Assembly (NCBI GenBank): GCA_012026885.1
Contig: VEPL01000007.1
Span: forward strand, 214,948 to 278,947
Source of the DNA: Betaproteobacteria bacterium
GTDB lineage: Bacteria; Pseudomonadota; Gammaproteobacteria; Burkholderiales; Rhodocyclaceae
DNA: 64,000 bases
Direction: 5' to 3'
The notes beneath the pieces were generated by a model that did not search any database, was not told the origin of the DNA, and worked only from the letters and a program-made list of their open reading frames with translations. Below are positions 11,370 to 40,030 of this stretch, in pieces. The translations under genes were made by a program, and so were the position numbers. Within the stretch, counting starts at the first letter, position 1; each line of letters begins with the position of its first letter.

Positions 11370-11648
11370 ATGAGCGAAATCAGGATAACCCGCAAACACA
11401 AGCTGACGGCCAAGAAGGCGCGGTTGGCTGCGGAGAAGGTTGCCACCGACCTCAAGGAGGAGTTCGACCTCTCGTATGCCTGGGACGATGAGGGGGTCCT
11501 CCATTTCGAGCGCACCGGCCTGCACGGGCAATTGCGGCTGGGCCGCGGGCAGGTCAGCGTGCACGTCCGCCTCGGATTCCTCCTCATCCCGTTCCGGGCG
11601 GCGCTGGAACGGGAAATCCACGACTACTTCGACCAGCGCTTCGTCTGA
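11370..11648 (+). CDS. polyhydroxyalkanoic acid system family protein
   Basis: A 92-residue basic protein with the pattern of the PHA granule-region family (PHA_gran_rgn): an N-terminal MSEIRITRKHKLTAKKAR, then a curved-sheet segment, ending in REIHDYFDQRF. Members are small, often near PHA genes, and of unproven function. It stands at the start of the storage-lipid region, convergent with the acyl-CoA-binding protein gene. Confidence 0.75.
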   Translation: MSEIRITRKHKLTAKKARLAAEKVATDLKEEFDLSYAWDDEGVLHFERTGLHGQLRLGRGQVSVHVRLGFLLIPFRAALEREIHDYFDQRFV

Positions 11649-11665
11649 GTCCGGGCCCCGGCCTT

Positions 11666-11923
11666 TCAGCCGCCGAGGGCGCCGATCAGGTCAATGTAGG
11701 CCTGCATTGCGTCATCTGCCGAAGTTCCCTGCAGTCCGGCCCAGGCATCGTACTTGGCGCGGCCGACCAGGTCGGTGAAGCCCGGGCGGCGACCGCTCAC
11801 GTCACCTTCTGTCGCCTGCTTGTACAACGCGTAGATGCGCAGCAGGGTGGCGTTGTCCGGGCGCTCGGCGAGCGATTTGGATGCGGCAACGGCTGTTTCG
11901 AATGCGGATTTCAGGTCGCTCAT
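11666..11923 (-). CDS. acyl-CoA-binding protein
   Basis: An 85-residue four-helix ACBP with the family signature LRIYALYKQATEGDV and KYDAWAGLQG. It binds long-chain acyl-CoA in the cytoplasm and presents it to acyltransferases and reductases. It is divergent from the wax ester synthase gene 66 bases away, which fits a role in feeding acyl-CoA to it. A TATAAT lies upstream on this strand and AGGAGA precedes the ATG. Confidence 0.93.
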   Translation of the reverse strand: MSDLKSAFETAVAASKSLAERPDNATLLRIYALYKQATEGDVSGRRPGFTDLVGRAKYDAWAGLQGTSADDAMQAYIDLIGALGG

Positions 11924-11955
11924 CGGACTCTCCTCAAGGAGTTTGCGGATTCGGT

Positions 11956-11961
11956 ATTATA
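11956..11961 (-). promoter_or_regulatory. candidate -10 box for the acyl-CoA-binding protein gene
   Basis: A perfect TATAAT on the minus strand, about 33 bases before the ACBP start codon. No convincing -35 box is seen at the usual distance. Confidence 0.35.
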
Positions 11962-11989
11962 GTTACTTCGTTATCCCCGGATTTCCACC

Positions 11990-13450
11990 ATGGCAACGCG
12001 CGAGCCCATTTCCAACGTCGACACCGCCTGGCTGCGAATGGATCGCCCGAGCAACCTGATGCAGATCGTCGGCGTCATGCTCTTCGAGGGGAAGCTCGAT
12101 TTCGTCCGCCTGCGCATTGCCCTTGAAAACGGCCTTCTGCGTTTCCGGCGCTTCCGCCAGCTTGCCGTCGCGGAGGGTGCCGGTTATGTCTGGCAGGACG
12201 ATCCGGATTTCGATCTGGATCATCACCTGCATCACGAATTGCTGCCCGGTCGCGAGGGCAAGGTGGAGTTGCAACGCTTCGTCGCCGATCTTGCCTCGAC
12301 GCCGCTCAACCCGCACCGGCCGCTCTGGGAAATGCACCTCGTCGAGACTTCGCTCGGCGGCCCGGCGCTGGTGATGCGCATCCACCATGCGATCGGCGAC
12401 GGCATCGCGCTGGTCGGCGTCATGATGTCGATGATGGACAGCGGTCCCGAGGCGCCTGCGATGCGCCGGCCATCGCCGCTTGCCAAGGCGCCGGCGGAGG
12501 CCGACGAGGGCGGTCACGATTTCTTCTGGGATACGGTCTGGCGCCCGATGAGCGATGCGATGCTCGCATCGGTCCGCGTATCCACCAACCTGTGGGTCAA
12601 GTATGTCGAACTCCTCGCCAACCCCGGCCGGCTTGGCGACTATGCCCGGCTCGGGGCCGGGTTCGCCAGCGAACTGGGCCGCCTGGCGATCATGCCGGAC
12701 GACAGCAGGACGCGCTTCAAGGGGAAGCCCGGCGTCGCGAAATGCGTTGCCTGGTCCGAGCCGATCGCCCTGCCGGAAGTCAAGGCGGTCGGCAAGGTGC
12801 TCGGCTGCTCGGTCAATGACATGCTGCTCTCTTCAGCCGCGGGCGCCTTGCGCGCCTACCTGGTCGAGCGCGGTGATGCGGTGGATGACGTCGAAATCCG
12901 CGGGCTTATCCCGGTCAACATGCGGCGACCCGAGGATTTCGGCGATCTCGGCAATCGCTTCGGCCTGGTTGCGCTGGAATTGCCGGTCGGCGTCGAGAAC
13001 CCCCTGGCGCGTTTGTACGCGACCAAGGCGAGGATGGACAGGCTCAAGGGATCGCTGCAGGCAGCAGTGACGCTGACCCTGCTCGGCGCCGTCGGCATGG
13101 CGCCCAAGGCCGCCCAGCAGCAGGTTCTCGACCTGCTTGCCAACAAGGCGACCGCGGTGATGACCAATGTGCCGGGCCCGACCGAGGCGCTCTACCTGGC
13201 AGGGGCCCGCCTGCGCCAGCCGCTGTTCTGGGTGCCGCAATCGGGCGACATCGGCATGGGCGTTTCCATCCTCTCCTACGATGGGAAGGTCCAGTTCGGG
13301 CTGATTACCGACAAGGGCCTTGTTCCCGATCCCGAGCGCATCGTCGGCCGCTTCGCCGGGGAGTTCGAAAAACTGCTGCTGCTGGTCCTGATGGAGCCGC
13401 TCGAGCGCCTCGCCGATCCCGAGGCGGTCGAGGCAGCGCTCGCCGGCTGA
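11990..13450 (+). CDS. wax ester synthase / diacylglycerol acyltransferase (WS/DGAT)
   Basis: A 486-residue O-acyltransferase that esterifies fatty alcohols (wax ester) or diacylglycerol (triacylglycerol) with acyl-CoA. The catalytic HHxxxDG motif is HHAIGDG at 132-138. PLW is at 111-113, the conserved ND at 276-277 (SVNDMLL), and NVPGP near the C-terminus. Length and motifs match the bacterial AtfA family. A fatty acyl-CoA reductase is encoded 3.5 kb downstream and an acyl-CoA-binding protein is divergent from it, so wax ester is the likely product, though the enzyme family also accepts diacylglycerol. Confidence 0.93.
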   Translation: MATREPISNVDTAWLRMDRPSNLMQIVGVMLFEGKLDFVRLRIALENGLLRFRRFRQLAVAEGAGYVWQDDPDFDLDHHLHHELLPGREGKVELQRFVADLASTPLNPHRPLWEMHLVETSLGGPALVMRIHHAIGDGIALVGVMMSMMDSGPEAPAMRRPSPLAKAPAEADEGGHDFFWDTVWRPMSDAMLASVRVSTNLWVKYVELLANPGRLGDYARLGAGFASELGRLAIMPDDSRTRFKGKPGVAKCVAWSEPIALPEVKAVGKVLGCSVNDMLLSSAAGALRAYLVERGDAVDDVEIRGLIPVNMRRPEDFGDLGNRFGLVALELPVGVENPLARLYATKARMDRLKGSLQAAVTLTLLGAVGMAPKAAQQQVLDLLANKATAVMTNVPGPTEALYLAGARLRQPLFWVPQSGDIGMGVSILSYDGKVQFGLITDKGLVPDPERIVGRFAGEFEKLLLLVLMEPLERLADPEAVEAALAG

Positions 13451-13481
13451 GGCTCTGGCGGACGAGCGCGCCGGGACGGTT

Positions 13482-14267
13482 TCATTCGTCCAGTTCGGCC
13501 TTGGCAGCTGCGATGTCCAGGCTTTCCATGGCATCCGCCGGCGTGCACGCGGCCGCCTCGCCGTAGAGCTTCTCGGCGTCACGCAGGCGCGAACGGCCGA
13601 ACAGCATGACCAGCCCGCTCGCATACTCGGTGCGGGCGATTGCCGAATCGGGGTTGCACTCGAGCGCTGACTTGAAATGCTTCTCGGCGGCGTCCTTCTT
13701 GGCGCCGTAGGTGAGGCCGCCGACCATGCTGCCGACCTTGTCGATGATCTCGGCATGCCAGGTTCCTAGCGCGATATGGGCATCGGCGTGTTTCGGCTGC
13801 AGTTTGAGGGCACGGTCGAGGCTGGCCTTGATCTTGCCACCGAGGCCCTGGGCCAGTGCCTTCGCCACCGAGATGCCCTGGCTGTAGCGGCCGAGGGCGT
13901 AAGCGTGGAAGTACCAGGCGTTGGCATCCTGCGGGCCGCTTTCCTGCTGGCCGGAACACCGTTCGGCAATTTCCTCGAAGAGCACGAGCTTGGCCGCGGC
14001 GTCGTCCTCGAGGTAATTGGCGTAGATCATCGCGGCCTTGTTGGCGGCGTTGATGCCGCCGGGCGTGCCGGCCTTGAGGCCGAGTTCGACGGCCTTGGCG
14101 AAATCGCCGGCGTGGTATGCCCGCCAAGCGTCCTGCGTCGCGGCATCGGCAGGGAATGGTTCGCAGTCGCCGCGATGCAGACGGGGCCAGTTTTTCTCGA
14201 GCGAAGCGCCCGCATAGGCGAATGACTTGTCCGGGTTGGGAAATTTTTTCCAGTTGCGTTTTGCCAT
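13482..14267 (-). CDS. TPR-like repeat protein
   Basis: About 261 residues, helical throughout, with tetratricopeptide-like units (DAWRAYHAGDFAKAVELGLKA; ALKLQPKHADAHIALGTWHA; HFKSALECNPDSAIARTEYA). There is no signal peptide. The ATG at 14267 follows GGAGACAG; the in-frame ATG at 14279 overlaps the stop of the TetR gene upstream. The gene is probably co-transcribed with that regulator. TPR proteins are scaffolds; the partner is unknown. Confidence 0.75.
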   Translation of the reverse strand: MAKRNWKKFPNPDKSFAYAGASLEKNWPRLHRGDCEPFPADAATQDAWRAYHAGDFAKAVELGLKAGTPGGINAANKAAMIYANYLEDDAAAKLVLFEEIAERCSGQQESGPQDANAWYFHAYALGRYSQGISVAKALAQGLGGKIKASLDRALKLQPKHADAHIALGTWHAEIIDKVGSMVGGLTYGAKKDAAEKHFKSALECNPDSAIARTEYASGLVMLFGRSRLRDAEKLYGEAAACTPADAMESLDIAAAKAELDE

Positions 14268-14278
14268 GTCTGTCTCCA

Positions 14279-14920
14279 TCAGTTCTTGTTGACGTAGGCC
14301 CGCGAGAGCTTCTCCAGCAATTGGCGGGCCTCGCCGGTGAGGAAGGGGGCAGCGAGCGACATCACCTGATAAACACCGTGCCCGATATCGGGCTCGCCAC
14401 GCGGGCGGCGAGCATGTTCGAAGGACAGCCAGAACGTGGCGACCACGCTCATGTTGATCGCCAGCGCACGGATCTCGCCCGCTGTCGCGGTCAACGCCCC
14501 GGAAGCGGCCAATCCCTCGCAGATGCTGACAGCGGTTGCTTCCTTGTGTGCGAGGATGCGCTGGAAGTGGGTCTCGACGAGCCGGTTGCGCATCAGCAGG
14601 TCGTTGATGTCGCGATAGAAGAAGCGGAATTTCCAGATCGTCTCGAACAGCAGGTGCAGGTAAAGCCAGATGTCCTCGGTACCGTGCGGGCGGCTGCCAG
14701 GGGCCGAGAGCAGGCTGTCGATCTCCCGTTCGTAGTCGGCGAACAGCGCGTCGACGATCTCGTCCTTGTTGTGGTAGTGGTAGTAAAGATTGCCCGGACT
14801 GATGCCCATCTCGTCGGCGATGACCGTCGTCGTGACGTTGGGCTCGCCGAAATCGTTGAACAGCTTCAGTGCGGTTTCAAGGATGCGCTCGCGCGTGCGG
14901 CGCTTGGGCTTTCTCTCCAT
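14279..14920 (-). CDS. TetR-family transcriptional regulator
   Basis: A 213-residue regulator with an N-terminal TetR helix-turn-helix (RERILETALKLFNDFGEPNVT, then GISPGNLYYHYHNKDEI) and a helical ligand domain containing WKFRFFYRDINDLL. That C-terminal pattern resembles PhaD-type and fatty-acyl responsive TetR proteins, so acyl-CoA is a plausible ligand. It lies between the wax ester synthase and a patatin-like gene, and is a candidate regulator of the storage-lipid region. Confidence 0.88.
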   Translation of the reverse strand: MERKPKRRTRERILETALKLFNDFGEPNVTTTVIADEMGISPGNLYYHYHNKDEIVDALFADYEREIDSLLSAPGSRPHGTEDIWLYLHLLFETIWKFRFFYRDINDLLMRNRLVETHFQRILAHKEATAVSICEGLAASGALTATAGEIRALAINMSVVATFWLSFEHARRPRGEPDIGHGVYQVMSLAAPFLTGEARQLLEKLSRAYVNKN

Positions 14921-14961
14921 GCGGCCCGTTTTCCGTCAATGTCAGAAGCATCCAGCATACA

Positions 14962-16158
14962 TCAAGCGGGACGGCGCGCCGCGAGCACGCGCTCGAGTTC
15001 CGCAAGCGATTGGTCGAGTGCGACGGTCGCTGCCTGCAGCTTGTGTCGGCGCCCCGTGCGACTCGAGTCGAGCAGGGTGCGGCGGTGATCCTTGAGGACC
15101 GCGAGGTCGAGTGCGAGCCCGTGCCGCTCGAGGATGGGGCGCAGTTCGTGCCGGCGCCGGTAGAGGTCGGTGCGCGTGCGCTGGTAGGCGTGCTCGCACA
15201 AGCGCTGGCGGTCGCGATAGCTGAAGACGTTGGTGAAGAACATCTCGGCATCGTCGCGGCTTGGTTCAAAGAGGATGACGTCGGCGTTCTCGTACTGGTG
15301 TCGGTAACGGTCCATCCCGACCCGCATGCGCGAATGGATGATGGCGCGGAAGGTCTGCGAGAGGACGACGGGAAGACCGCCGTCGTTGAGCGCCTCGCGC
15401 TCGCGGGCATTGCGATGGGCGGCCAGTTCGGCGTCGAACGGAACGAGCGGGTTGATGCAGAGCACCAGCTCGGCGCCTTCCTTGAGCGCGACCGAGGCGT
15501 GCAGCGTCTTGATCAGTGCACCGTCGACGTAATGATGGCCGTTGATGCGGACCGGCGGGAAAAGACCCGGCAGGGCGGTGCTGGCCTGGACGGCGACCGA
15601 TATCGGCACGTCGTCGTGGCCGGGCGATCCGAACTCGATCGATTCACCGGAGTCGAGGTCGGTGGCGACGATGACGAGGCGCTTGCGCAGCTTGCGGAAA
15701 TCGTTGGTGCGACCGTTCTTCGAGAAGAGCTCGCGCATGATGCGGTCGATGCCGCGGTTGTCGAAGAGCCCTGTCGGGATCGCCCGCGACAGGCGCTGGA
15801 AGGATTCGAACAGCCCGTGCCGGAAGGGCGCCGACAGGTAGTCCTGGGTAGCCGAGAAGAGGAGGCCGGGAACCGACAGCGCACGCTGCAGGTATTCGCC
15901 GAAGGCAGGGCGCATGAGGACGTCGGGATCGAAGAATTCCTCGGCGTCGTTGTGGATCAGGATGCGCGCGAGCCTTTCCGGATCGATGCCGTTGGCGAAG
16001 GCCGAGGCGATCAGGCTGCCCGAACTGACGCCGACGAAGATGTCGGCATTCTTGAAGTCGATACCTTCGATCGATTCCGCCAGCGCCACGCTGGCTCCGA
16101 TTTCATATATACCGCCGAGCGGACCGCCGCCGGCGAATGCGATACCGATTTTCGACAA
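14962..16158 (-). CDS. patatin-like phospholipase / lipid acyl hydrolase
   Basis: A 398-residue cytoplasmic patatin-domain hydrolase. It has the oxyanion loop GGGPLGG near residue 10, the nucleophile elbow GVSSGS (about residues 43-48) and the catalytic Asp in YVDGALI. The start is TTG with GGGGGAA seven bases upstream. Patatin-like enzymes hydrolyse ester bonds in phospholipids or neutral lipids, and some act on storage granules. Its position beside a phasin and wax-synthesis genes suggests granule lipid turnover, which is an inference. Confidence 0.88.
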   Translation of the reverse strand: MSKIGIAFAGGGPLGGIYEIGASVALAESIEGIDFKNADIFVGVSSGSLIASAFANGIDPERLARILIHNDAEEFFDPDVLMRPAFGEYLQRALSVPGLLFSATQDYLSAPFRHGLFESFQRLSRAIPTGLFDNRGIDRIMRELFSKNGRTNDFRKLRKRLVIVATDLDSGESIEFGSPGHDDVPISVAVQASTALPGLFPPVRINGHHYVDGALIKTLHASVALKEGAELVLCINPLVPFDAELAAHRNAREREALNDGGLPVVLSQTFRAIIHSRMRVGMDRYRHQYENADVILFEPSRDDAEMFFTNVFSYRDRQRLCEHAYQRTRTDLYRRRHELRPILERHGLALDLAVLKDHRRTLLDSSRTGRRHKLQAATVALDQSLAELERVLAARRPA

Positions 16159-16180
16159 GCTTGCTTCCCCCCGATGTGAC

Positions 16181-16248
16181 GGATGCCCGACTCACGCCGG
16201 GCATCCCGATCATGCCTTGCCACATTATCGGGCATCCAGAATGCCCGA
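16181..16248. repeat. pair of related hairpins (GGGCAT / ATGCCC)
   Basis: Two perfect inverted repeats lie side by side: GGATGCCCG...CGGGCATCC (16181-16206, 9-bp stem) and TCGGGCAT...ATGCCCGA (16228-16248, 8-bp stem). All four arms share the same GGGCAT core. They lie downstream of the phasin gene and upstream of the patatin gene on the minus strand. There is no T run, so they resemble REP-type palindromes or a transcript-stabilising element more than an intrinsic terminator. Confidence 0.65.
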
Positions 16249-16260
16249 CGGAGGGATTAC

Positions 16261-16806
16261 TCAGGCAACAACTGCCGGACCAGCAGGGGCATTAGCAGGC
16301 TGGGACTTGGCAGCGGCGCTTTTCGTCGCGGCCGGCTTCTTGGCCGGCGCTGCCTTGGCGGCAACAGCTTTCGCGGTGACAGGCGTGGCGGCCTTGACCG
16401 GAGCCGGCTTGGCGGCGGGCTTGCGGGCCGGGCGCTCCTGCGCATCGGTCAGTTGCTGGACGACGGCGGTCAACTCGGCAACGCGCTTGGACAGCTTGTC
16501 GATGTCCTTCTTGGTCGGTACGCCGAGGCTCGACAGGGCACGCGCGACGCGGTCCTCGAACACCTGCTCGAGGCGGTCCCAAGTTCCCGCAGCCTTGCCG
16601 GCAACGGCAGCCATCTTTTCATCGGCAACCTTGCGGGTCTTCTTCTGGATCGTCTCGCCTTCCTTCACCAGCGCGTCGAAGACCTTGTTGCCTTCTTCCT
16701 GCGCCTTGGAGTAGGCACCCAACCCGGCCAGCCAGATCTGCTGCGCGGAATCGCGAATGGTTTGGGAAAGCTGGTTATCGGACAGCGACTTGAATTTCTT
16801 GACCAT
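16261..16806 (-). CDS. phasin-family granule-associated protein
   Basis: A 181-residue protein of the poly(hydroxyalkanoate) granule-associated (phasin) family. An amphipathic helical domain (SQTIRDSAQQIWLAGLGAYS, and KEGETIQKKTRKVADEK) is followed by a coiled segment and a long Ala/Lys/Pro-rich C-terminal tail like that of PhaF-type phasins, which can touch DNA. AAGGAG lies before the ATG at 16806. Phasins coat PHA granules, and some bind other lipid inclusions. The divergent gene is a fatty acyl-CoA reductase, so this one may serve wax inclusions as well as PHA. Confidence 0.85.
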   Translation of the reverse strand: MVKKFKSLSDNQLSQTIRDSAQQIWLAGLGAYSKAQEEGNKVFDALVKEGETIQKKTRKVADEKMAAVAGKAAGTWDRLEQVFEDRVARALSSLGVPTKKDIDKLSKRVAELTAVVQQLTDAQERPARKPAAKPAPVKAATPVTAKAVAAKAAPAKKPAATKSAAAKSQPANAPAGPAVVA

Positions 16807-16878
16807 GATGCACTCCTTGAGGAAATTGAACTCGTCCGGCAACACCCTTGTTGCCTCTGGAGTCAGTGTAGGATGGTG

Positions 16879-16920
16879 TCCTAGAGGAAGCACACTAAAA
16901 TCCTAGGCGAGGTCCTCTAG
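16879..16920. promoter_or_regulatory. repeated TCCTAG motif between phasin and acyl-CoA reductase genes
   Basis: The divergent intergenic region holds an 8-bp inverted repeat, CTAGAGGA (16881-16888) and TCCTCTAG (16913-16920). It also holds a direct repeat, TCCTAGAGGAAG (16879) and TCCTAGGCGAGG (16901), whose starts are exactly 22 bases apart. This two-helical-turn spacing is what a regulator controlling both genes would bind. The protein is unknown; the nearby TetR gene is a candidate. Confidence 0.5.
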
Positions 16921-16956
16921 AATTCGCCCATCCAACAATATTCGAGGAGACGGAAC

Positions 16957-18948
16957 ATGCAATATTTCATTACCGGCGCATCGGGTTTCATCGGCAAGCG
17001 GCTCGTCAGGAAGCTGCTCGAGCGGGACGGCAGCGTCGTCTATTTCCTGATCCGCGAGGTCGAGAAGGATGCGCTCGAGCCGCTTTACGAGTATTGGGGT
17101 TGCGACGCCAGCCGCGCCATTCCGGTAGTCGGCGACCTGACGCAGCCACTGCTCGGCGTTTCCGCGGTCGACCGCAAGAAACTGGGGAAAAAGACCACCC
17201 ACTTCTTCCACCTCGCGGCCATCTACGATCTCAAGGCCGATGCCGAGATCCAGCTCAAGGTCAATGTCGCCGGTACGCGCAACACCGTCCAGTTCGCCGA
17301 AGCGATCGGCGCCAAGCATTTCCACCTGTTCAGCTCGATCGCCTCCGCTGGCCTCTTCGAGGGCATCTTCCGCGAGGACATGTTCGAGGAAGCCGAGAAC
17401 CTCGAGCATCCGTACTTCCGGACCAAGCACGACTCCGAGGGCATCGTCCGCCGCGAGTGCAGCATTCCCTGGCGCATCTACCGCCCGGCCCTCGTCGTCG
17501 GCGATTCGCGCACCGGCGAGATGGACAAGATCGATGGTCCTTACTACTTCTTCAAGCTGATCCAGAAGATGCGCACCATGCTGCCGTCGTGGATGCCGAC
17601 CGTCGGCATCGAGGGTGGGCGCATCAATGTCGTCCCGGTCGATTTCGTCGTTGCCGCGGTCGATCATATCGCGCACCAGAAGGGCGAGGATGGCAAGTGT
17701 TTCCACCTGGTCGACCCGACCCCGATGCGCGTCGGCGACCTGCTCAATACCTTCTGCCGGGCCGCGCACGCGCCGCAGATGACCATGCGCGTGAACGCCG
17801 CCCTGTTCAGCTTCATCCCGCCCCGCCTGCTCAAGGGCCTGATGGCGCTGACGCCGGTGCGTCGCATCCGGCACGCGGTGATGAAGGATCTCGGCTTGCC
17901 CGACGACATGTTCCGTTTCGTCAATTACCCGACCCGCTTCGATTGCCGCGAGACGACCCGTGCGCTCAAGGGTACGGACATTGCCGTGCCGCCGCTGGAT
18001 GACTACGCCTGGCGCCTCTGGGATTACTGGGAACGGCATCTGGATCCCGACCTCTTCATCGACCGTAGCCTGCGTGGGCAGGTCGAGGGCAGGGTCGTCC
18101 TCGTTACCGGCGCCTCTTCCGGCATCGGCAAGGCAACGGCATGGAAGCTCGCCGAGGCCGGCGCCCACGTGGTGACCATCGCCCGCGACAAGGAGCAACT
18201 CGATGAGGCAGTCGCCGAATTTGCGGCAGCCGGGTTGAAGCTCCATGCCTATGTCGGCGACCTCGCCGACATGGCGTCGGCCGAGGCGGTGACGCAGCAG
18301 GTCCTGAGCGAGCATGGCGTGGTCGACATCCTGATCAACAATGCCGGCCGCTCGATCCGCCGAGCCATCGAGAATTCCTACGACCGTTTCCACGACTTCG
18401 AGCGGACGATGCAGCTCAACTACTTCGGCTGCCTCAAGGTCACCATGACCGTCCTGCCCAAGATGTCGGCGCAAAAGCGTGGCCACATCATCAACATCTC
18501 GTCGATCGGCGTTTTGACCAACGCGCCGCGCTTCTCGGCCTATGTCGCCTCGAAGTCGGCGCTCGACGCGTGGACGCGCTGCGCGTCGTCCGAGTTTGCC
18601 GACCGCGGCATCCATTTCACGACCATCAACATGCCGCTGGTCAAGACGCCGATGATCGCGCCGACCAAGCTCTACGACTCGGTACCCACCTTGTCCCCGG
18701 AAGAGGCTGCCGACCTGATCTGCGACGCGATCATTCACAAGCACGTGCGTGTCGCCACCCGCCTAGGCATCACCGGCCAGGTCATGCATGCGCTGGTGCC
18801 GCGCATCGCGCAGATCGTCATGAACACGACCTTCCGCATGTTCCCGGATTCGTCGGCTGCCCAGCACAAGGAAAAGAGCGCCCTGCCCAACATGCCTTCG
18901 GCTGACCAGGTCGCCTTCCAGCAATTCATGCGCGGCATCTACTTCTGA
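16957..18948 (+). CDS. two-domain fatty acyl-CoA reductase (alcohol-forming type)
   Basis: A 663-residue protein made of two reductase domains. Residues 1-370 are an extended SDR (TGASGFIG at 6-13; Y153-x3-K157 in HPYFRTKHDSEG). Residues 375-663 are a classical SDR (TGASSGIG 384-391, NNAG 461-464, S515/S516, Y529-x3-K533). Length, domain order and many stretches (GIFREDMFEEAE, PTVGIEGGR, FERTMQLNYFG) match from memory the Marinobacter fatty acyl-CoA reductase Maqu_2507 (661 residues), which reduces acyl-CoA through aldehyde to fatty alcohol with NADPH. GAGGAG precedes the ATG. It would supply the alcohol for the wax ester synthase at 11990. The stop overlaps the next start (TGATG). Activity on acyl-CoA rather than aldehyde alone is inferred from the homologue. 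Confidence 0.87.
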   Translation: MQYFITGASGFIGKRLVRKLLERDGSVVYFLIREVEKDALEPLYEYWGCDASRAIPVVGDLTQPLLGVSAVDRKKLGKKTTHFFHLAAIYDLKADAEIQLKVNVAGTRNTVQFAEAIGAKHFHLFSSIASAGLFEGIFREDMFEEAENLEHPYFRTKHDSEGIVRRECSIPWRIYRPALVVGDSRTGEMDKIDGPYYFFKLIQKMRTMLPSWMPTVGIEGGRINVVPVDFVVAAVDHIAHQKGEDGKCFHLVDPTPMRVGDLLNTFCRAAHAPQMTMRVNAALFSFIPPRLLKGLMALTPVRRIRHAVMKDLGLPDDMFRFVNYPTRFDCRETTRALKGTDIAVPPLDDYAWRLWDYWERHLDPDLFIDRSLRGQVEGRVVLVTGASSGIGKATAWKLAEAGAHVVTIARDKEQLDEAVAEFAAAGLKLHAYVGDLADMASAEAVTQQVLSEHGVVDILINNAGRSIRRAIENSYDRFHDFERTMQLNYFGCLKVTMTVLPKMSAQKRGHIINISSIGVLTNAPRFSAYVASKSALDAWTRCASSEFADRGIHFTTINMPLVKTPMIAPTKLYDSVPTLSPEEAADLICDAIIHKHVRVATRLGITGQVMHALVPRIAQIVMNTTFRMFPDSSAAQHKEKSALPNMPSADQVAFQQFMRGIYF

Positions 18949-19416: not shown

Positions 19417-20289
19417 TCAGGCCAGCGCCGCGAGCAGGGCGGATCCGGTGCGGTCGGCGTAGAGCACCGCCAGGTGGCCGATGCCGGCCAGTTCGACGTC
19501 GCGCGCCCCGGGCAGGCGCTGGTTGTCCTGCGGCATCACGTAGTTGTCGTGGGCGGTGCGCAGCGATACGGCCGGAACGTGCAGCGGCTCGGCGGCCAAA
19601 TCCGCGAGCCAGCGCGATCCCGGTTCCATCTCGCGGGCGTTGGCGCCGATGCCGATGCGTGCAAGTTGGGTCCCCATGTGCGGCGAGGCGAGCGTCACCA
19701 GGCGCGCGACGTGCTGCGGGCCATTCACGGAAAGGTAGGAACGGCAGACGAGGCCGCCCATGCTGTGGGCGACCAGGATGACTTGGGGGGCACCAGTTGC
19801 GCGACACACTTCGTCGATGCGTTGCCGCAGCTGCGGGACCAGCATGCCGATGTGGGTGTAGGGAGGGGTCAGGCTGACCGTCGCAACCACATGCCCTGCC
19901 GCTTCAAGCTGGCGGCGCAATCGCCACCAGACTCCGCGGCTGCAGCCGTAGCCGTGGACGAGGACGAGCGGCGTGGACGCCGGCCGCAGGCGGTCGGGCG
20001 GCATCCACAGGCGCTCGAAGGGCAGGACGGCGACGAAGGTCAGCAGGAATGCTAGGTACTCGCCGACGACCATGCGCAGCCGCTCGGACATCCGAAGCTC
20101 GGGAGCAGGCGACGGATAGGCGCGCGCGAACGACCAGGTGACGGCAGTGATGACGGCACGAACCGCAAGAACTCCGGCCAGGGCCGCCAGTGCTGCGCCG
20201 ACCAGTGATGCATCGAACAGGGCACGCGCGCCCCAGGCGTAAAGCATTCCCTCGCAGGCGAGCCAGAGGAAGAGGGCGACCGGTACCAT
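19417..20289 (-). CDS. membrane-anchored alpha/beta hydrolase (lipase-like)
   Basis: A 290-residue protein. Residues 1-95 carry two or three hydrophobic helices. The rest is an alpha/beta hydrolase with oxyanion segment VHGYGCSRG, nucleophile elbow AHSMGG (Ala in place of the first Gly of GxSxG), catalytic Asp in the C-terminal third and catalytic His near IGHLAVL. This resembles triacylglycerol lipases of the LipA/esterase type. It is the last gene of a minus-strand cassette with GMC oxidoreductase and aldehyde dehydrogenase, and could release the alcohol they oxidise. It abuts bcp convergently. Confidence 0.85.
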   Translation of the reverse strand: MVPVALFLWLACEGMLYAWGARALFDASLVGAALAALAGVLAVRAVITAVTWSFARAYPSPAPELRMSERLRMVVGEYLAFLLTFVAVLPFERLWMPPDRLRPASTPLVLVHGYGCSRGVWWRLRRQLEAAGHVVATVSLTPPYTHIGMLVPQLRQRIDEVCRATGAPQVILVAHSMGGLVCRSYLSVNGPQHVARLVTLASPHMGTQLARIGIGANAREMEPGSRWLADLAAEPLHVPAVSLRTAHDNYVMPQDNQRLPGARDVELAGIGHLAVLYADRTGSALLAALA

Positions 20290-20292
20290 GGC

Positions 20293-21903
20293 CTAGGCGG
20301 CAGCCGGAGCCATTTTGCCGCCGAGACTTTGCGCCAGCAGAGACGCGTTGCGGGCCACCAGCCCGTAGATCGAAAGTTGGGGATTGGCGCCGATGCTGGT
20401 GGGGAAGACGGATCCGTCATGGATCGACAGGTTATCGATGTGGAAATGGCGGCCGCTGTCATCGACCACGCCCCGCGCCGGGTCGTCCCCCATGGCGCAG
20501 CCGCCCATGACATGCGCGCTGACCACTCTGCAACGGTGGGGCCCGAGCGGCAATGCGGCGATGCCGCGCCGGGCCTCGTCCCAGGTGTCGAAGCCGATGC
20601 CGGCCTCGTGGACCGGCGTCACCCAGCGTGCGCCCGCGGCGAACTGGATCTCGGCCATCGCCAGCAGGGCGCGGCGGGCCGCTTCCCAATAGGCGTCGCG
20701 CAGGGGGTAATCGAGGGACGGCGAGCCGTCGCTGCGGAGCGTAACGCGTCCGCCCGTGCTCTCCGGGTGAAAACCGTCGCGAACCAGGGCGATGATGGTC
20801 TGGCAGTTGGCGAACTGCTGCATCAGGCGGGCGTGGGCCTCGCCCCAGCCGTGCAGGGTCGTCGCGAAAAGAACGGGGTGCAGCGGGGGAACCTCCAGCT
20901 TGAATCCAAGCGGGCCGTCGATCGGCGCCTGCGTCAGGAAATGGTCGCTGTAGACCGATTGCGGCGCCCCGGTATAGGCGCGCACCGGTTCCTGGAAGAG
21001 CGCGGACGAGACGACGGTAGGGTGCAGGAAGGTGCGCTTGCCGACCAGGTTGGCGGGATCCGGAGCCTTGCTGCGCAGGAGCAGGGCCGGCGTGTTGATG
21101 GCGCCGCCGGCCAGCACGAAGTGGGTGGCGTGGACATCGACGCGAGCCCCTGTCGGGGTGCGTCCGTCGGCCCCGAGAGCCACTCCCGAGAGCGCCACGG
21201 CCTTGCGCCCGGCGAACTCGATGCGGTCGGCGCGCAGGCGCGTCACCAACGTGGCGCCGGCGGTCAGGGCGGCGGGAATGGTGGTCAGCAGCATCGACTG
21301 CTTGGCGTTCGTCGGGCAACCCATCCCGCAGTAGCCGATGTTCCAGCACATCTTGACGTTGCGTCGGATCGTCGCGACCGGAATGCCCAGGACCTTGGCG
21401 CCATTGACCAGTGCTGCGTTGTTCTCGTTGGGGGCGACCGGCCACATCCCGATGTGCAGGCGCTCTTCCATGCGGGCGAACCAGGGTGCCAGAGACTCGA
21501 CTGTCAGGTTGCGCAGGCCGTGCGCCGATTGCCACCACTGCAGTGTCGCAGGCGGGGTACGGAAGCTGCTCGTCCAGTTGACGGTGGTCGACCCGCCGAC
21601 GCAACGTCCCTGCAGGATGTTGATCGCCTTGTCGGCCGTCTTGCGGGCAGCGGATTCCTGATACAGGTCCGGATAGGCTTCGGACTCGAGCATGCGGAAA
21701 TCGTCGGATGAGCGCAACGGCCCCTCTTCCAGGATGACGACCTTCAAGCCGGCGCGCGCGAGGATCTCGGCGGTGACGCCGCCCCCGGCACCGCTGCCGA
21801 CGATGGCGACATCGGCCTCGAGCCTGAAGTCGCGTTCCAGTTGCGATGCATCGAGGTGCTTCCAGCCCGATGCGAGTCCGGCGCGGATAGGGTCTTCCAT
21901 CAT
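20293..21903 (-). CDS. GMC-family FAD alcohol oxidoreductase
   Basis: A 536-residue GMC oxidoreductase. The N-terminal FAD-binding fold is VGSGAGGGVTAEILARAGL followed by VVILEEG. The C-terminal segment has HVMGGCAMGDDP and NLSIHDGSVFPTSIGANPQ, the pattern of the cholesterol-oxidase/long-chain alcohol oxidase branch. The ATG at 21903 forms an ATGA overlap with the upstream gene and follows GAGG. GMC enzymes of this branch oxidise primary alcohols to aldehydes; an aldehyde dehydrogenase is encoded two genes upstream. Long-chain fatty alcohol is the attractive substrate in this locus but is not proven. Confidence 0.88.
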   Translation of the reverse strand: MMEDPIRAGLASGWKHLDASQLERDFRLEADVAIVGSGAGGGVTAEILARAGLKVVILEEGPLRSSDDFRMLESEAYPDLYQESAARKTADKAINILQGRCVGGSTTVNWTSSFRTPPATLQWWQSAHGLRNLTVESLAPWFARMEERLHIGMWPVAPNENNAALVNGAKVLGIPVATIRRNVKMCWNIGYCGMGCPTNAKQSMLLTTIPAALTAGATLVTRLRADRIEFAGRKAVALSGVALGADGRTPTGARVDVHATHFVLAGGAINTPALLLRSKAPDPANLVGKRTFLHPTVVSSALFQEPVRAYTGAPQSVYSDHFLTQAPIDGPLGFKLEVPPLHPVLFATTLHGWGEAHARLMQQFANCQTIIALVRDGFHPESTGGRVTLRSDGSPSLDYPLRDAYWEAARRALLAMAEIQFAAGARWVTPVHEAGIGFDTWDEARRGIAALPLGPHRCRVVSAHVMGGCAMGDDPARGVVDDSGRHFHIDNLSIHDGSVFPTSIGANPQLSIYGLVARNASLLAQSLGGKMAPAAA

Positions 21904-22382
21904 CGTATCCTCGGAGGGCCGGGGTAGCCGATCGCCGGCCAGGTGTCGGGGCGCGCGTACCACGCCCCGAAGACCAGGTCGTGCAACGCCGCATAGCCGG
22001 AGTTCAGGAGCGCGAAGCGGCTGTTGCGCCAGCGCTCGAGGAAGGCGGCGATGTCGTCTTTGCCGGCAGAGTCCCAAGGCGACCAGATGCCGGCAACCAG
22101 CATGCGGGTCGGCGGGAAGGCGAGCAGGTCGAAGAGTTCGCCGATCTCGGCCTGCATGTTGGCGGAAAGCCCGGCGATCGCCTTGCCGACGCCGGCGACC
22201 GTACGCTCGACAAGGGCAGGTTGCTGGTCGCCGGCAGGTAGCGCCCCGGCCAGGATGACCGGGATCAGCGCGGCGAGGATGCGCTCGCGGCCGCCGTCAG
22301 CCGATGGGCGCGCACACCCGGCGACGCTGAGGAGAGCGCTGCCGCCCAGACCGGCCTTGAGGAATTCGCGACGGGTGGTCAT
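21900..22382 (-). CDS. Tat-exported small partner of GMC oxidoreductase
   Basis: A 160-residue protein with a twin-arginine signal (MTTRREFLKAGLGGSA) and a Cys at a lipobox-like VAGC. The rest is helical. It sits between aldehyde dehydrogenase and GMC genes with 4-base overlaps on both sides, so all three are translated together. Its size and position recall gluconate-2-dehydrogenase subunit 3-type partners that carry a GMC subunit across the membrane by Tat. The GMC protein itself has no signal, which fits piggy-back export. Confidence 0.75.
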   Translation of the reverse strand: MTTRREFLKAGLGGSALLSVAGCARPSADGGRERILAALIPVILAGALPAGDQQPALVERTVAGVGKAIAGLSANMQAEIGELFDLLAFPPTRMLVAGIWSPWDSAGKDDIAAFLERWRNSRFALLNSGYAALHDLVFGAWYARPDTWPAIGYPGPPRIR

Positions 22383-23806
22383 CGCAGCAGAACCTTGAGC
22401 AGTTTCTCGAAGCGGGCGCCGTAAGGTGGCGAGAAGAGTCCGATGCCGTTGATGCGCGACTGGTAGAAGACGGGCTTCAGCTTCGAGAAGGTCAGGAAGC
22501 CCTCGTGTCCGTGGTAATGGCCCATGCCGCTGGCGCCGATCCCGCCGAAGGGAAGGTCGTCCTGGGCGATGTGAAGGATGGTGTCGTTCACGGTGACGCC
22601 GCCCGCTAGGGTGCGTTCGAGGACGCCGCGTACGCGCCGGCGGTCGCGGTCGAAGAGGTAGAGGGCGAGCGGCCGGTCATGCTCGTTGATGTAGGCGAGC
22701 GCCTCGTCGAGATCGCGGTATGTCAGGATCGGGAGCACGGGCCCGAAGATCTCCTCCTGCATGACCCGCATGGCGTCGGTTGCGCCGAGCACCAGAGTCG
22801 GCGGCAGGCGACGGCTGCGTGCTGCTTCGTTTTCCTCACCGGCAAGCGGGACCAGACGGCCGCCGCGGGCGCGTGCATCCTCCAGATAACCCCTCAGCCG
22901 GGCAAAGTGCCGCGCATCGATGACGGCCGTGTAGTCCGGGTTGCGCTCGAGTGCGGGGTAGCTCCGGGTAACGACACGCCGTGCCGCGGCGATGAAGTCA
23001 TCGACCGAATCCTCGGGCAGGAATACATAATCCGGGGCGATGCAGGTCTGGCCGGCATTCAGGCACTTGCCGGCGAGGATGCGGGCCGCGGCCTTGTCGA
23101 CCGGATAGCCCGGCGCGATGATGGCCGGCGACTTGCCGCCCAGTTCGAGAGTGACCGGCGTCAGGTTCGCTGCTGCGGCCCGCATCACATGCCTTCCGAC
23201 CGCCGTCGATCCGGTGAACAGCAAATGATCGAAGGGCAGCGCGGAGAAGGACTCGGCGAGCCCGACATCACCGCCGACGATGGCGACTTCATCTGCGGCG
23301 AAGTAGCGCGAGGCCAGGTCGGCGAGCAGGCGAGCGGTTGCCGGTGTCAACTCGGACATCTTCACCAGGGCACGGTTGCCGGCTGCGAATGCGGCTGTCA
23401 GCGGTCCGATGGCCAAGTACAGAGGGTAATTCCAAGGCGTCACGATGCCGATGCACCCGACCGGCTGCGGCCTTACCTCGGCGCGCCCCGGTTGGAACCA
23501 GAGCGACACCGGGCGTCGCTGCGGACGGCTCCAGCGGGCGACATGGCGCCGAGCATGGCGGATGCCTTCAAGGCTCGGGAATATCTCGAGCAACTGGGAT
23601 TCATGATGCGAACGCTGGCCGAAATCCGCGGCGATCGCCGTGCAGAAAACACCCTGATTCTCCCGCACCATCGCTTCGAGCCTTGCGAGGCGGTCGCGCC
23701 GGATGGCGATACTCACCGCCGGCTCGGCACGGGAAGCCGCACGAATGCGCTGAAATGACGCCTCGAGTGCTGCAACCTCGGTTATCAGGGGTGTGCTTTC
23801 CGCCAT
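22379..23806 (-). CDS. aldehyde dehydrogenase (coniferyl-aldehyde dehydrogenase-like)
   Basis: A 475-residue NAD(P)-dependent aldehyde dehydrogenase. Active-site Glu is in TLELGGKSPA and catalytic Cys in NAGQTCIAPDY. The C-terminal region HYHGHEGFLTFSKLKPVF is typical of the CalB (coniferyl aldehyde) and fatty-aldehyde group, which has a short hydrophobic C-terminus. It is the first gene of the minus-strand cassette. It would convert the aldehyde made by the GMC enzyme to the acid. The group accepts both aromatic and aliphatic aldehydes, so the name alone does not settle the substrate. Confidence 0.9.
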   Translation of the reverse strand: MAESTPLITEVAALEASFQRIRAASRAEPAVSIAIRRDRLARLEAMVRENQGVFCTAIAADFGQRSHHESQLLEIFPSLEGIRHARRHVARWSRPQRRPVSLWFQPGRAEVRPQPVGCIGIVTPWNYPLYLAIGPLTAAFAAGNRALVKMSELTPATARLLADLASRYFAADEVAIVGGDVGLAESFSALPFDHLLFTGSTAVGRHVMRAAAANLTPVTLELGGKSPAIIAPGYPVDKAAARILAGKCLNAGQTCIAPDYVFLPEDSVDDFIAAARRVVTRSYPALERNPDYTAVIDARHFARLRGYLEDARARGGRLVPLAGEENEAARSRRLPPTLVLGATDAMRVMQEEIFGPVLPILTYRDLDEALAYINEHDRPLALYLFDRDRRRVRGVLERTLAGGVTVNDTILHIAQDDLPFGGIGASGMGHYHGHEGFLTFSKLKPVFYQSRINGIGLFSPPYGARFEKLLKVLLR

Positions 23807-23904
23807 CGGTGACCTCGCTCCTTCATCATGTTTCCAGTCTAAGGAGGGCCTGCCGGGGGGGTTAGGGGTTTGCCTCTAAACGCGGTCGCCACGGTGGTTG
23901 CATA

Positions 23905-35817: not shown

Positions 35818-36003
35818 GCGCCGGCGCTGGCGGCGGGCGCGGGTGCCGCCCAGCCAGAGCAGCAGGCCGCAGGGGAGCAGCCCGTAGAACAGGAACGAGA
35901 TGATGGCGGCGACTAGGCTCGGCTCGCTGGCGGCAACGAGCAGGGTCACGTAGAGCCAACCGATGGCGACGATATACACGCCCGGGATTATGCTGCAATC
36001 CAT
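35770..36003 (-). CDS. small conserved membrane protein
   Basis: About 77 residues with two hydrophobic helices (VYIVAIGWLYVTLLVAA; AIISFLFYGLLPCGLLLWL) and a basic C-terminal tail. Similar short proteins starting with VYVVAIGWL occur in betaproteobacteria, with unknown role. The start is set at 36003, where the upstream Met-rich extension is dropped. It overlaps the end of the ZIP gene by 48 bases, and its start sits beside the phaC promoter. Confidence 0.65.
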   Translation of the reverse strand: MDCSIIPGVYIVAIGWLYVTLLVAASEPSLVAAIISFLFYGLLPCGLLLWLGGTRARRQRRRLLADQRAHERDAADT

Positions 36004-36031
36004 TGACAGTGTTGCGGACGGCATGGAGAAT
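36003..36031 (+). promoter_or_regulatory. phaC promoter
   Basis: A perfect -35 TTGACA (36003-36008) and -10 GAGAAT (36026-36031) are spaced by 17 bases. The predicted transcript start near 36038 leaves a leader of about 39 bases before phaC. A GCTGCAAT just upstream (near 35990) shares GCTGCA with sequence before phaR. Confidence 0.55.
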
Positions 36032-36076
36032 CCATCGGTTCAACCCCCACGCAAAACAAGAGAAAAGAGACCGCCC

Positions 36077-37807
36077 ATGACGCAGCAGGGTTCCGGCGAC
36101 AACAATGCCTTCCTCGGCTCGGCGATGCAGTTCATGCAGGCCGGCCAGAACGTGGCCCAGCAATTCATGGAGTTCATCGGCAAGTCGGGCAATCCGGCAG
36201 CGGCCAGTGTCCCGCCGACCGATCCGCAGGCACTCACGGAACTGCAGCGCCGCTTCACCGAGCAGCAGATGGCGCTCTGGCAGGGCATGCTCGCTAAAGG
36301 CCAGGGGTCCGGATCGGCGTTCCGGGTCGACCCCGAGCCCGGTGACCGCCGTTTCTCGGCCCCCGAGTGGCAGTCCAGCCCGGTGTTCGACTACCTCCGC
36401 CAAGCCTACCTCCTCAACTCGGCCTACCTCAAGGAACTCGTCGAACTGGTCCCGGCAGCCGATGGCAAAGCGCGCAACCGCATGCGTTTCCTGGCCCGCC
36501 AGATGACCGATGCGATGGCGCCGTCCAATTTCGCCGCCACCAACCCCGAATTCATCGCCCGCGCCCTCGAGACGAAGGGCCAAAGCATCACCGACGGCAT
36601 CAACAACCTCCTGAAGGATTTCGAGAAGGGGCGCATCTCGATGACCGACGAGGCTGCCTTCGAGGTCGGCCGCAACCTCGCGACGACCGCCGGTGCCGTG
36701 GTCTTCGAGAACGAGGTGATGCAGCTGGTCCAGTACGCACCGCTGACGGCCAAGGTCGGCACGCGTCCGCTGCTCGTCGTTCCCCCCTGCATCAACAAGT
36801 TCTACATCATGGACCTGCAGCCGGACAATTCGCTGATCCGCTACATGGTCGAGCAGGGCAATACCGTCTTCCTGGTGTCGTGGCGCAATCCCAAGGAAGA
36901 GCAGGGGCGTCTCGGCTGGGATGACTACCTTGAAATGGGGCCGATCACGGCCCTGCGCGTAGTGCGCGACCTTTGCAAGGTCAAGCAGGTCAATGCGCTC
37001 GGCTTCTGCGTCGGCGGCACCATCCTGACCTCGGCGCTCGCCGTGCTCGCTGCCCGTGGCGACAAGGCCGCCGCATCGCTGACCCTGTTGACGACGCTGC
37101 TGGATTTTTCGGATACCGGCGAGATCGGCCTGTTCATTGACGAGCACGCGCTGCTCGCACGCGAATCGTCGATCGGCAAGGGCGGCCTGTTGCCGGCGCG
37201 CGACCTGCAGAGCACCTTTTCCTTCCTGCGCGCCAATGACCTGGTCTGGAACTATGTCACCGGCAACTACCTGAAGGGTCACAAGCCGCAAGCCTTCGAC
37301 CTGCTCTACTGGAATTCCGATTCGACCAACCTGCCGGGGCCGTTCGCCTGCTGGTACATGCGCAATCTCTACCATGACAACAGCCTGCGCGTTCCCGGGC
37401 GGCTGGTCATGTGCGGCGAGAAGGTCGATCTCGGTCGCCTCGACATGCCGGTCTACCTGCTGGCGACGCGCGAGGATCACATCGTGCCCTGGCAGTCGGC
37501 CTACCAGAGCACCCGCCTGCTCGCGGGCGACGTGCGCTTCGTGCTTGGCGCTTCCGGGCACATCGCCGGGGTCATCAACCCGGCAAGCAAGAACAAGCGC
37601 AGCTACTGGGTCAATGCCGATGTGAAGGGCGATCCCGATGCCTGGATAGCCGGGGCCGACGAGAAGGCCGGCAGCTGGTGGAGCGACTGGGCGTCCTGGC
37701 TCAAGCCGCTGGCGGGGACCCAGCGCGCCGGGCGCAAGCCGGGCAGCGCGGATTATCCGCCGCTCGAGCCGGCGCCGGGACGTTATGTCAAGGAACGCGC
37801 CGTCTGA
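36077..37807 (+). CDS. phaC: class I poly(3-hydroxyalkanoate) synthase
   Basis: A 576-residue class I PHA synthase that polymerises (R)-3-hydroxyacyl-CoA on the granule surface. The lipase-like box is LGFCVGGT with nucleophile Cys311. The catalytic Asp is in LATREDHIVPW and His in GASGHIAGVINP. The N-terminal domain (QWQSSPVFDYLRQAYLL-like) is present. The ATG at 36077 fits the family start; upstream in-frame ATGs read through promoter sequence. It heads the phaC-phaB-phaB-phaR cluster. The thiolase gene phaA is not in the window. Confidence 0.96.
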   Translation: MTQQGSGDNNAFLGSAMQFMQAGQNVAQQFMEFIGKSGNPAAASVPPTDPQALTELQRRFTEQQMALWQGMLAKGQGSGSAFRVDPEPGDRRFSAPEWQSSPVFDYLRQAYLLNSAYLKELVELVPAADGKARNRMRFLARQMTDAMAPSNFAATNPEFIARALETKGQSITDGINNLLKDFEKGRISMTDEAAFEVGRNLATTAGAVVFENEVMQLVQYAPLTAKVGTRPLLVVPPCINKFYIMDLQPDNSLIRYMVEQGNTVFLVSWRNPKEEQGRLGWDDYLEMGPITALRVVRDLCKVKQVNALGFCVGGTILTSALAVLAARGDKAAASLTLLTTLLDFSDTGEIGLFIDEHALLARESSIGKGGLLPARDLQSTFSFLRANDLVWNYVTGNYLKGHKPQAFDLLYWNSDSTNLPGPFACWYMRNLYHDNSLRVPGRLVMCGEKVDLGRLDMPVYLLATREDHIVPWQSAYQSTRLLAGDVRFVLGASGHIAGVINPASKNKRSYWVNADVKGDPDAWIAGADEKAGSWWSDWASWLKPLAGTQRAGRKPGSADYPPLEPAPGRYVKERAV

Positions 37808-39469: not shown

Positions 39470-40030
39470 ATGACCGAGCCCGTTCGCCTGATCAAGAAGT
39501 ATCCGAATCGCCGTCTCTACGACACCAAGACCAGCGCCTATATCACGCTCGGTGACGTCAAGGACCTTGTCCTCAAGTTCGAGGTGTTCAAGGTCGTCGA
39601 TGCCAAGTCGGCCGAAGACCTGACGCGCAGCATCCTGTTGCAGATCATTCTCGAGGAGGAAACCGGCGGCGTCCCGCTATTTTCGAAGGACCTGCTGTCC
39701 GCCTTCATCCGCTTCTATGGCAGTGCGATGCAGGGCATGCTCGGCAAGTACCTGGAAAACAACATGAAGACCTTCGTTGATTTCCAGAGCAAGTTGCAGG
39801 AACAGTCGCGCACCATGTATGGCGGCGACAACCAGCACATGCAGGCGGATTTCTGGGCGCAGTTCCTCAACTTCCAGCAACCGGCCATGCAGAGCATGAT
39901 GAATGCCTACATGGACCAGTCCAAGAAGATGTTCCAGCAGATGCAGGACCAGTTGCAGAGCCAGACGCGCAACATGTTCACCGGCTTCCAGTTCACCGGT
40001 ACGCCCGACAAGGCCGACAAGCAGCCCTGA
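39470..40030 (+). CDS. phaR: PHA synthesis repressor PhaR
   Basis: A 186-residue regulator. The N-terminal DNA-binding domain is RLIKKYPNRRLYDTKTSAYI, then a PHB-binding accumulation domain (LTRSILLQIILEEE) and a Gln/Met-rich C-terminal tail. PhaR binds nascent PHA; as polymer builds up it leaves phasin and phaR promoters. It lies directly after the phaB genes, and a palindrome overlaps its promoter. Confidence 0.95.
   Translation: MTEPVRLIKKYPNRRLYDTKTSAYITLGDVKDLVLKFEVFKVVDAKSAEDLTRSILLQIILEEETGGVPLFSKDLLSAFIRFYGSAMQGMLGKYLENNMKTFVDFQSKLQEQSRTMYGGDNQHMQADFWAQFLNFQQPAMQSMMNAYMDQSKKMFQQMQDQLQSQTRNMFTGFQFTGTPDKADKQP

Follow-up and report, generated by a model that had tools for sequence, protein, structure and literature searches.

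Described systems and a probable wax-ester island

The PF05597 phasins PhaF and PhaI of Pseudomonas coat polyhydroxyalkanoate (PHA) granules. PhaF sets the location of the granules and carries a DNA-binding tail (PMC4117528). The same source counts both PF05597 and PF09650 as phasin-related families. According to PMC6273058, Ralstonia PhaP1 can bind triacylglycerol (TAG) inclusions (work of Hanisch 2006), although lipid inclusions such as TAG bodies do not seem to possess specific abundant proteins. With regard to wax-ester synthesis, the closest described relatives are Burkholderiales-like scaffolds that carry WS/DGAT, an acyl-CoA-binding protein (ACBP), a reductase resembling the alcohol-forming Maqu_2507 and a PHA-system protein, with a phasin in one scaffold (PMC10351704). 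Here we describe a comparable locus in a 64,000-nucleotide stretch of contig VEPL01000007.1 from a betaproteobacterium of the Rhodocyclaceae (hereafter the window), in which a PF05597 phasin is encoded divergently from a two-domain fatty acyl-CoA reductase (FAR) in the midst of further wax-related genes.

Profile matches, judged against the Pfam gathering or curated cut-offs, recover all the components that an earlier note had named from this DNA, namely WS/DGAT, ACBP, a TetR regulator, a patatin-like lipase, the phasin and the 663-residue FAR. The PHA locus that it had placed in the same window is likewise present, with a class I PhaC, two PhaB and an open reading frame (ORF; 39470-40030) that we take to be PhaR-like on account of its N-terminal motif. 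The island has WS/DGAT, ACBP, the reductase, a PHA-system protein and, in one case, a phasin in common with the published scaffolds, such that parts of the betaproteobacterial cluster had already been reported in 2023 (PMC10351704), and the view of the earlier note that the clustered set is unusual finds no support. The phasin/PhaC comparison, the catabolic arm and the operator are added here and find no mention in the accessible portions of that study. We regard the locus as belonging to a conserved wax-ester island that has been described in part, the new elements being the wax-linked phasin and a predicted two-promoter operator.

Judged from sequence comparison, the locus is probably a wax-ester storage island that would combine synthesis by FAR and WS/DGAT, a phasin coat, a catabolic arm and control by TetR through a dyad. 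The chances appear evenly balanced for the more far-reaching proposition that the PF05597 phasins of the island are native, dedicated coats of wax inclusions in Gram-negative bacteria, with a nucleoid-tethering PhaF-like tail and a single TetR dyad switching both the coat/reductase pair and the mobilising arm, and that the PHA labels of PF05597 and PF09650 are misannotations in this setting.

Phasin, reductase and acyltransferase across genomes

The evidence that separates the phasin from PHA metabolism comes from Aeromonas, the genus of one of the island loci (L102, Aeromonas sp. RU39B), for which 37 genomes were compared, 20 with FAR and 17 without. All 20 FAR-bearing genomes encode a PF05597 phasin, as a single copy that is always divergent from FAR, and none of the other 17 does so. 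PhaC_N is found in 8 of the 20 and in 12 of the 17 (as a two-piece match in G487 and G502); accordingly, 12 of the 20 phasin-bearing genomes are without PhaC_N, and all 12 genomes with PhaC and without FAR are devoid of PF05597. There is no positive association between PF05597 and PhaC (Fisher 0.10, leaning negative). Class III PhaC did not pass its cut-off in any of the 37 genomes, with sub-threshold matches only in the 20 that contain PhaC. PhaP, a small ORF beside phaC, is present in 19 of these 20 and in none of the 17 PhaC-lacking genomes, the single exception (G487) having its phaC on a 3.5-kb contig. The phasin thus follows the wax genes and not the PHA synthase, and PhaP follows PhaC, which amounts to a natural double dissociation across the genus. 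In three of the PhaC-lacking genomes the contig that bears the island measures 4.2 to 4.6 Mb, which makes a gap in the assembly an improbable cause of the missing PhaC there.

Further, the phasin frame is open in all 20 FAR-bearing Aeromonas (185-193 residues), with an omega of 0.105 in the 12 genomes lacking PhaC as compared with 0.097 in the 8 possessing it; over the first 125 columns the values are 0.048 and 0.038, respectively. The phasin is therefore under purifying selection also where PhaC is missing. The PF09650 protein, too, is present in the island of 11 of the 12 PhaC-lacking genomes, the twelfth being cut by a contig end. The earlier suggestion that a PHA-type coat protein might serve wax inclusions gains support from this comparison, and the PF05597 phasin most likely coats wax-ester inclusions. 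No published report of a wax-ester-dedicated phasin or of a phasin/PhaC dissociation was found in a literature search that covered titles, openings of abstracts and selected passages, with few subscription journals among them; PMC2667194, PMC3918157, PMC6355812 and PMC9003127 contributed nothing further. Ralstonia PhaP1 can likewise bind neutral-lipid inclusions, but by heterologous placement, as opposed to the native pairing proposed here.

The association of FAR with WS/DGAT is strict. In a set of 60 genomes (that of the window and 59 relatives), FAR exceeds its cut-off in 10, and one more (G022) has a fragment of it at the edge of a contig. WS/DGAT occurs in exactly these 11 of 11 genomes and in 0 of the 49 others (Fisher 3e-12; scoring the fragment as absent gives 1.5e-10). 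Within the genus of the window FAR is patchy, occurring in 6 of 36 genomes, in one of them as a fragment. The pattern recurs in Aeromonas, with WS/DGAT in 19 of 20 FAR-bearing and 0 of 17 FAR-lacking genomes; the one miss (G510) lies on a 4.5-kb contig. A use of FAR for some purpose other than wax was considered on account of the 30 of 64 island loci with enough upstream sequence that show no WS/DGAT upstream. It was rejected on the basis of the 60-genome table and of the finding that all 22 of 22 chosen genomes without a WS/DGAT detected in the stretch around FAR do encode one. Because WS/DGAT so strictly co-occurs with FAR in all three comparisons, FAR is taken to serve wax synthesis. Copy numbers of WS/DGAT vary, with seven matches in Dechloromonas sp. 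SSD3 (G023, locus L043) versus one in the genome of the window.

Conservation of the island was assessed in named loci, i.e., the best-scoring 80 of at least 590, which are biased toward close relatives of the window and are mostly from Betaproteobacteria and Aeromonas. Counts refer to loci with enough flank, and presence near FAR was scored by tblastn with the window proteins, so that diverged copies are missed. In 76 of 79 such loci (L114 was dropped because of contig ends), the phasin is divergent from FAR and no more than 1.5 kb away from it, and hence the set is not unusual in a betaproteobacterium, contrary to what had been supposed. The phasin, rather than WS/DGAT, is the closest companion of FAR. 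Other components are conserved to differing degrees: patatin in 62/77, TetR in 63/76, the TPR protein in 59/73, WS/DGAT in 34/64, ACBP in 26/63, the PHA_gran_rgn (PF09650) protein in 21/61, the lipase in 18/69, the GMC oxidoreductase in 9/61, the aldehyde dehydrogenase (ALDH) in 6/58 and the peroxiredoxin just 3' of FAR in 7/73. A chance cluster was discarded as an explanation, since the gene order is conserved across many genera. In a first sample, the phasin stands beside FAR in 7 of 9 FAR-bearing loci with enough flank, the window included (L032 by a partial match). In a phylum-wide sample FAR was found in 18 of 397 genomes. Of the 17 besides that of the window, 8 have a PF05597-type phasin near FAR, seven by tblastn and G309 with a phasin ~2 kb downstream of FAR that passes Pfam; one genome (G038) is counted both here and among the nine loci of the first sample. 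Two of the 17 show a different layout: G279 has two PF05597 genes directly 5' of a distant WS/DGAT and a hydrolase, near FAR, and G466 has the same families plus PF09650 in a similar row. With tblastn identities of 22-32% between their phasins and WS/DGATs and those of the window, these two constitute a partly independent case of pairing between phasin and WS/DGAT.

Several observations weigh against the assignment of the phasin to wax inclusions. In Aeromonas the phasin adjoins FAR, and hence their co-occurrence is in part physical linkage; moreover, when PhaC is mapped onto the FAR gene tree of these 20 genomes, no more than 3 gains or losses are seen, so that, taken together, these comparisons represent few independent events. 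Among FAR-lacking genomes, the search for PF05597 covered those of Aeromonas. No phasin was detected near FAR in 3 of the 79 named loci (L080, plus L115 and L120 from Competibacter) or in 2 of the 9 first-sample loci (L037 and L039), nor in the stretch around FAR in 7 of the 17 other FAR-bearing genomes of the phylum-wide sample. The genome of the window has a full PHA locus, and its phasin could coat both stores. Additionally, a Zoogloea with PHA genes and strong expression of a phasin is described as having no predicted gene for wax (PMC5648520), and would be a counter-case if that phasin belongs to PF05597.

These points bear on an alternative in which the phasin is simply a coat of PHA granules that happens to be encoded near wax genes, since both stores serve carbon excess. 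Its family name and annotation, the class I PHA locus in the window and the presence of PhaC_N in 46 of the 50 genomes surveyed for it from among those of the 80 named loci, with three Aeromonas (L088, L102 and L104) and L103 as exceptions, would all agree with such a role. It is nonetheless quite unlikely given the 12 phasin-bearing Aeromonas without PhaC_N, three of them with the island on multi-megabase contigs, the persistence of purifying selection in these genomes and the absence of a PF05597 phasin from all 12 Aeromonas with PhaC and without FAR. Another alternative is a store consisting mainly of TAG or mixed neutral lipid, with FAR providing a minor stream of alcohol. That the WS/DGAT family catalyses both reactions tells against a pure wax-ester reading, one structural relative of the window protein is named as a diacylglycerol O-acyltransferase, and ACBP has been linked to TAG (PMC10351704). 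We consider this unlikely in view of the strict co-occurrence of FAR and WS/DGAT and of the lack of any Kennedy-pathway family among the island proteins scanned.

The enzymes themselves bear on whether the reductase could be aldehyde-only or a short-chain dehydrogenase/reductase (SDR) of unrelated function. FAR comprises a PF07993 domain (NAD_binding_4, male-sterility type; residues 5-234) and a PF00106 SDR domain (379-569). The YxxxK motif characteristic of SDRs is present in both (Y153/K157 and Y529/K533) and is invariant in 10 of 10 sequences. The C-terminal half is 54.6% identical to an SDR of Acinetobacter baumannii, presumably Acr1. An AlphaFold2 model of FAR was poor (mean pLDDT 59.7) and was set aside. 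For its part, WS/DGAT has the active-site motif HHxxxDG as HHAIGDG (residues 132-138), a motif that all 53 of the island homologues covering this region sufficiently have as well, and can be aligned to the solved chains 6chj and 7nxg. An aldehyde-only or unrelated reductase might be argued from the name of NF005539, which is just that of an SDR family oxidoreductase, and from the resemblance of the C-terminal half alone to the Acinetobacter protein, given that the Acinetobacter enzyme yields aldehyde only, whereas the Marinobacter enzymes release no aldehyde (PMC3522743). Against this, FAR possesses the additional N-terminal male-sterility domain and strictly co-occurs with WS/DGAT. Its likeness to Maqu_2507 rests on the published ~59% identity to that enzyme of betaproteobacterial reductases from similar clusters (PMC10351704), and even Mycobacterium FCR1, which is just 40% identical to Maqu_2507, forms both aldehyde and alcohol (PMC3522743). 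The possibility is thus very improbable. The window WS/DGAT, two-domain FAR and ACBP probably constitute a route from acyl-CoA via alcohol to wax ester, as had been proposed earlier and is now supported by the co-occurrence of FAR and WS/DGAT across genomes.

In the proposed wax-ester mechanism, FAR would convert acyl-CoA to a fatty alcohol, which WS/DGAT would join to a second acyl-CoA, with ACBP supplying the acyl-CoA. The divergent phasin would reside on the resulting wax-ester inclusion, instead of or besides PHA granules. Translation of this phasin (181 residues) most likely begins not with the GTG at 16893 but with an ATG at 16806, which an AAGGAG box precedes. The protein ends in a basic tail of 57 residues, rich in Lys, Ala and Pro (9 K and 2 R, with neither D nor E), which we presume to resemble that of PhaF. 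As proposed for PhaF, this tail may tether the inclusions to DNA. Patatin, the lipase, a GMC oxidase and ALDH could then mobilise the wax from ester to alcohol, aldehyde and fatty acid. If this is true, PHA metabolism could not be deduced from a match to PF05597 or PF09650 alone, and a second store may exist in organisms that accumulate PHA, for example Accumulibacter, in which the island is also found (L044 and L045).

The predicted operator and the island TetR

An expectation-maximisation search of 76 phasin/FAR gaps, seeded from the window, yielded a 22-bp dyad with the consensus GTTTAGG-N8-CCTAAAC. Its total score of 1099 compares with 363-412 in five mononucleotide shuffles with re-training. 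A core scoring at least 12 is present in 68 of the 76 gaps, on which the matrix was itself trained, whereas 20 rounds of dinucleotide shuffling gave 0.85 on average and never more than 4. The three best matches in the window are operator 1, in the phasin/FAR promoter, and both strands of operator 2, which lies in the promoter between ALDH and the gene of the FFLEELY motif protein and is outside the training set. At 13 bits or more, the window scan gives 3 matches as against 0.8 in shuffled windows. Besides the window, 10 of 11 named loci have a site scoring at least 10.6 in the ALDH/FFLEELY promoter (gaps of 106-316 bp). The miss is L107, with a score of 6.0, and L080, in which the partner gene is absent, was excluded; as a control, ~0.5% of 1436 random 150-bp pieces score at least 9.

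Every locus that encodes the island TetR has the phasin/FAR site (63 of 63), as compared with 3 of 11 that lack this regulator (2 were dropped because of contig ends), kinship among the loci being uncorrected. As the operator goes with the island TetR, this regulator is predicted to be the one that most likely acts on the dyad, in the phasin/FAR as well as the ALDH promoter, and it might in this way couple the making of the store to its use. Other results count against so simple a picture. At 9 bits or more, the window scan gives 4 matches versus 4.2 in shuffles. The ACBP/WS-DGAT promoter of the window contains no operator upon scanning, and only 7 of 25 such promoters score at least 9. Similar dyads also lie 5' of another TetR gene and of what is presumably an acyl-CoA dehydrogenase in Hydrogenophaga and Pelomonas; hence, the pairing of the dyad with the island TetR is not exclusive. 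Dyads of this type occur at L059:16266, L119:16480 and other Hydrogenophaga/Pelomonas loci, 5' of a TetR_C_13 regulator, which suggests a wider fatty-acid regulon. On balance, the occurrence of the dyad largely follows the island TetR, which is its putative binding partner.

Other genes of the island and its surroundings

The features of the locus are collected below. The PF09650 gene, even though the interval of the earlier note begins with it, was passed over there, as were the TPR protein, the catabolic arm (19417-23806) and the shared operator.

Table. Genes and predicted operators of the island and the PHA synthase of the same window
Feature	Position	Strand	Evidence or remark
PHA_gran_rgn protein, 92 aa	11370..11648	+	PF09650 84.7 bits, cut-off 26.6
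ACBP, 85 aa	11666..11923	-	PF00887 97.3 bits, cut-off 28.3
WS/DGAT, 486 aa	11990..13450	+	TIGR02946 371.5 bits, cut-off 309.95
TPR protein, 265 aa	13482..14279	-	PF13431 barely over cut-off; kept in the island of other genomes
TetR regulator, 213 aa	14279..14920	-	PF13972 C-terminal domain, 148.8 bits
Patatin-like lipase, 398 aa	14962..16158	-	PF01734 106.1 bits
Phasin (PhaF/PhaI family), 181 aa	16261..16806	-	PF05597 138.7 bits, gathering score 28.8; TIGR01837
Predicted operator 1, phasin/FAR divergent promoter	16879..16900	.	Imperfect copy of the dyad; scan of the window, 21.2 bits
Two-domain FAR, 663 aa	16957..18948	+	NF005539/PRK07201 992 bits, cut-off 549; PF07993 + PF00106
Peroxiredoxin, presumably BCP-type, 155 aa	18948..19415	+	PF00578
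Alpha/beta hydrolase, lipase-like, 290 aa	19417..20289	-	PF00561 53.6 bits
GMC oxidoreductase, candidate long-chain alcohol oxidase (putative substrate)	20293..21900	-	PF00732 + PF05199
Small protein, Tat-like N-terminus, between GMC and ALDH genes	21900..22382	-	Position conserved
ALDH, 475 aa	22379..23806	-	PF00171 285.7 bits
Predicted operator 2, ALDH/FFLEELY divergent promoter	23860..23881	.	16.1 and 15.1 bits, two strands
FFLEELY motif protein, 245 aa	23905..24642	+	NF047641 232 bits, cut-off 55
Class I PhaC	35963-37807		Two PhaB genes accompany

The AlphaFold2 model of the PF09650 protein (pLDDT 89) has a small alpha/beta fold, for which comparison with the PDB yields nothing at E<=0.001. 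Similarly, nothing in Pfam matches the small protein between the GMC and ALDH genes at E<=0.001. No tRNA gene was detected by a tRNA scan. Among plasmid records, only 6 match FAR at E<=1e-50 and none is close over both domains, the best full-length match being 42% (Tsukamurella); on this basis, plasmid-borne spread of the island was rejected. In three genomes of one genus, conceivably Marinobacter, with a FAR 60-61% identical to that of the window, no phasin, WS/DGAT or TetR was detected near FAR, and one of them has a weak BCP match. The locus L103, from a metagenome-assembled genome labelled Bradyrhizobiaceae, contains the island with a FAR 66% identical and with no TetR, operator or PhaC_N detected; the genome may be mislabelled, or else transfer may have brought the island there. 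As regards the peroxiredoxin, whose BCP-type label is our presumption, its gene in the window shares its first base with the final base of the stop codon of FAR, and a protein of this type is likewise encoded directly 3' of the phasin-less FAR of L115 and L120, both from relatives of Candidatus Competibacter.

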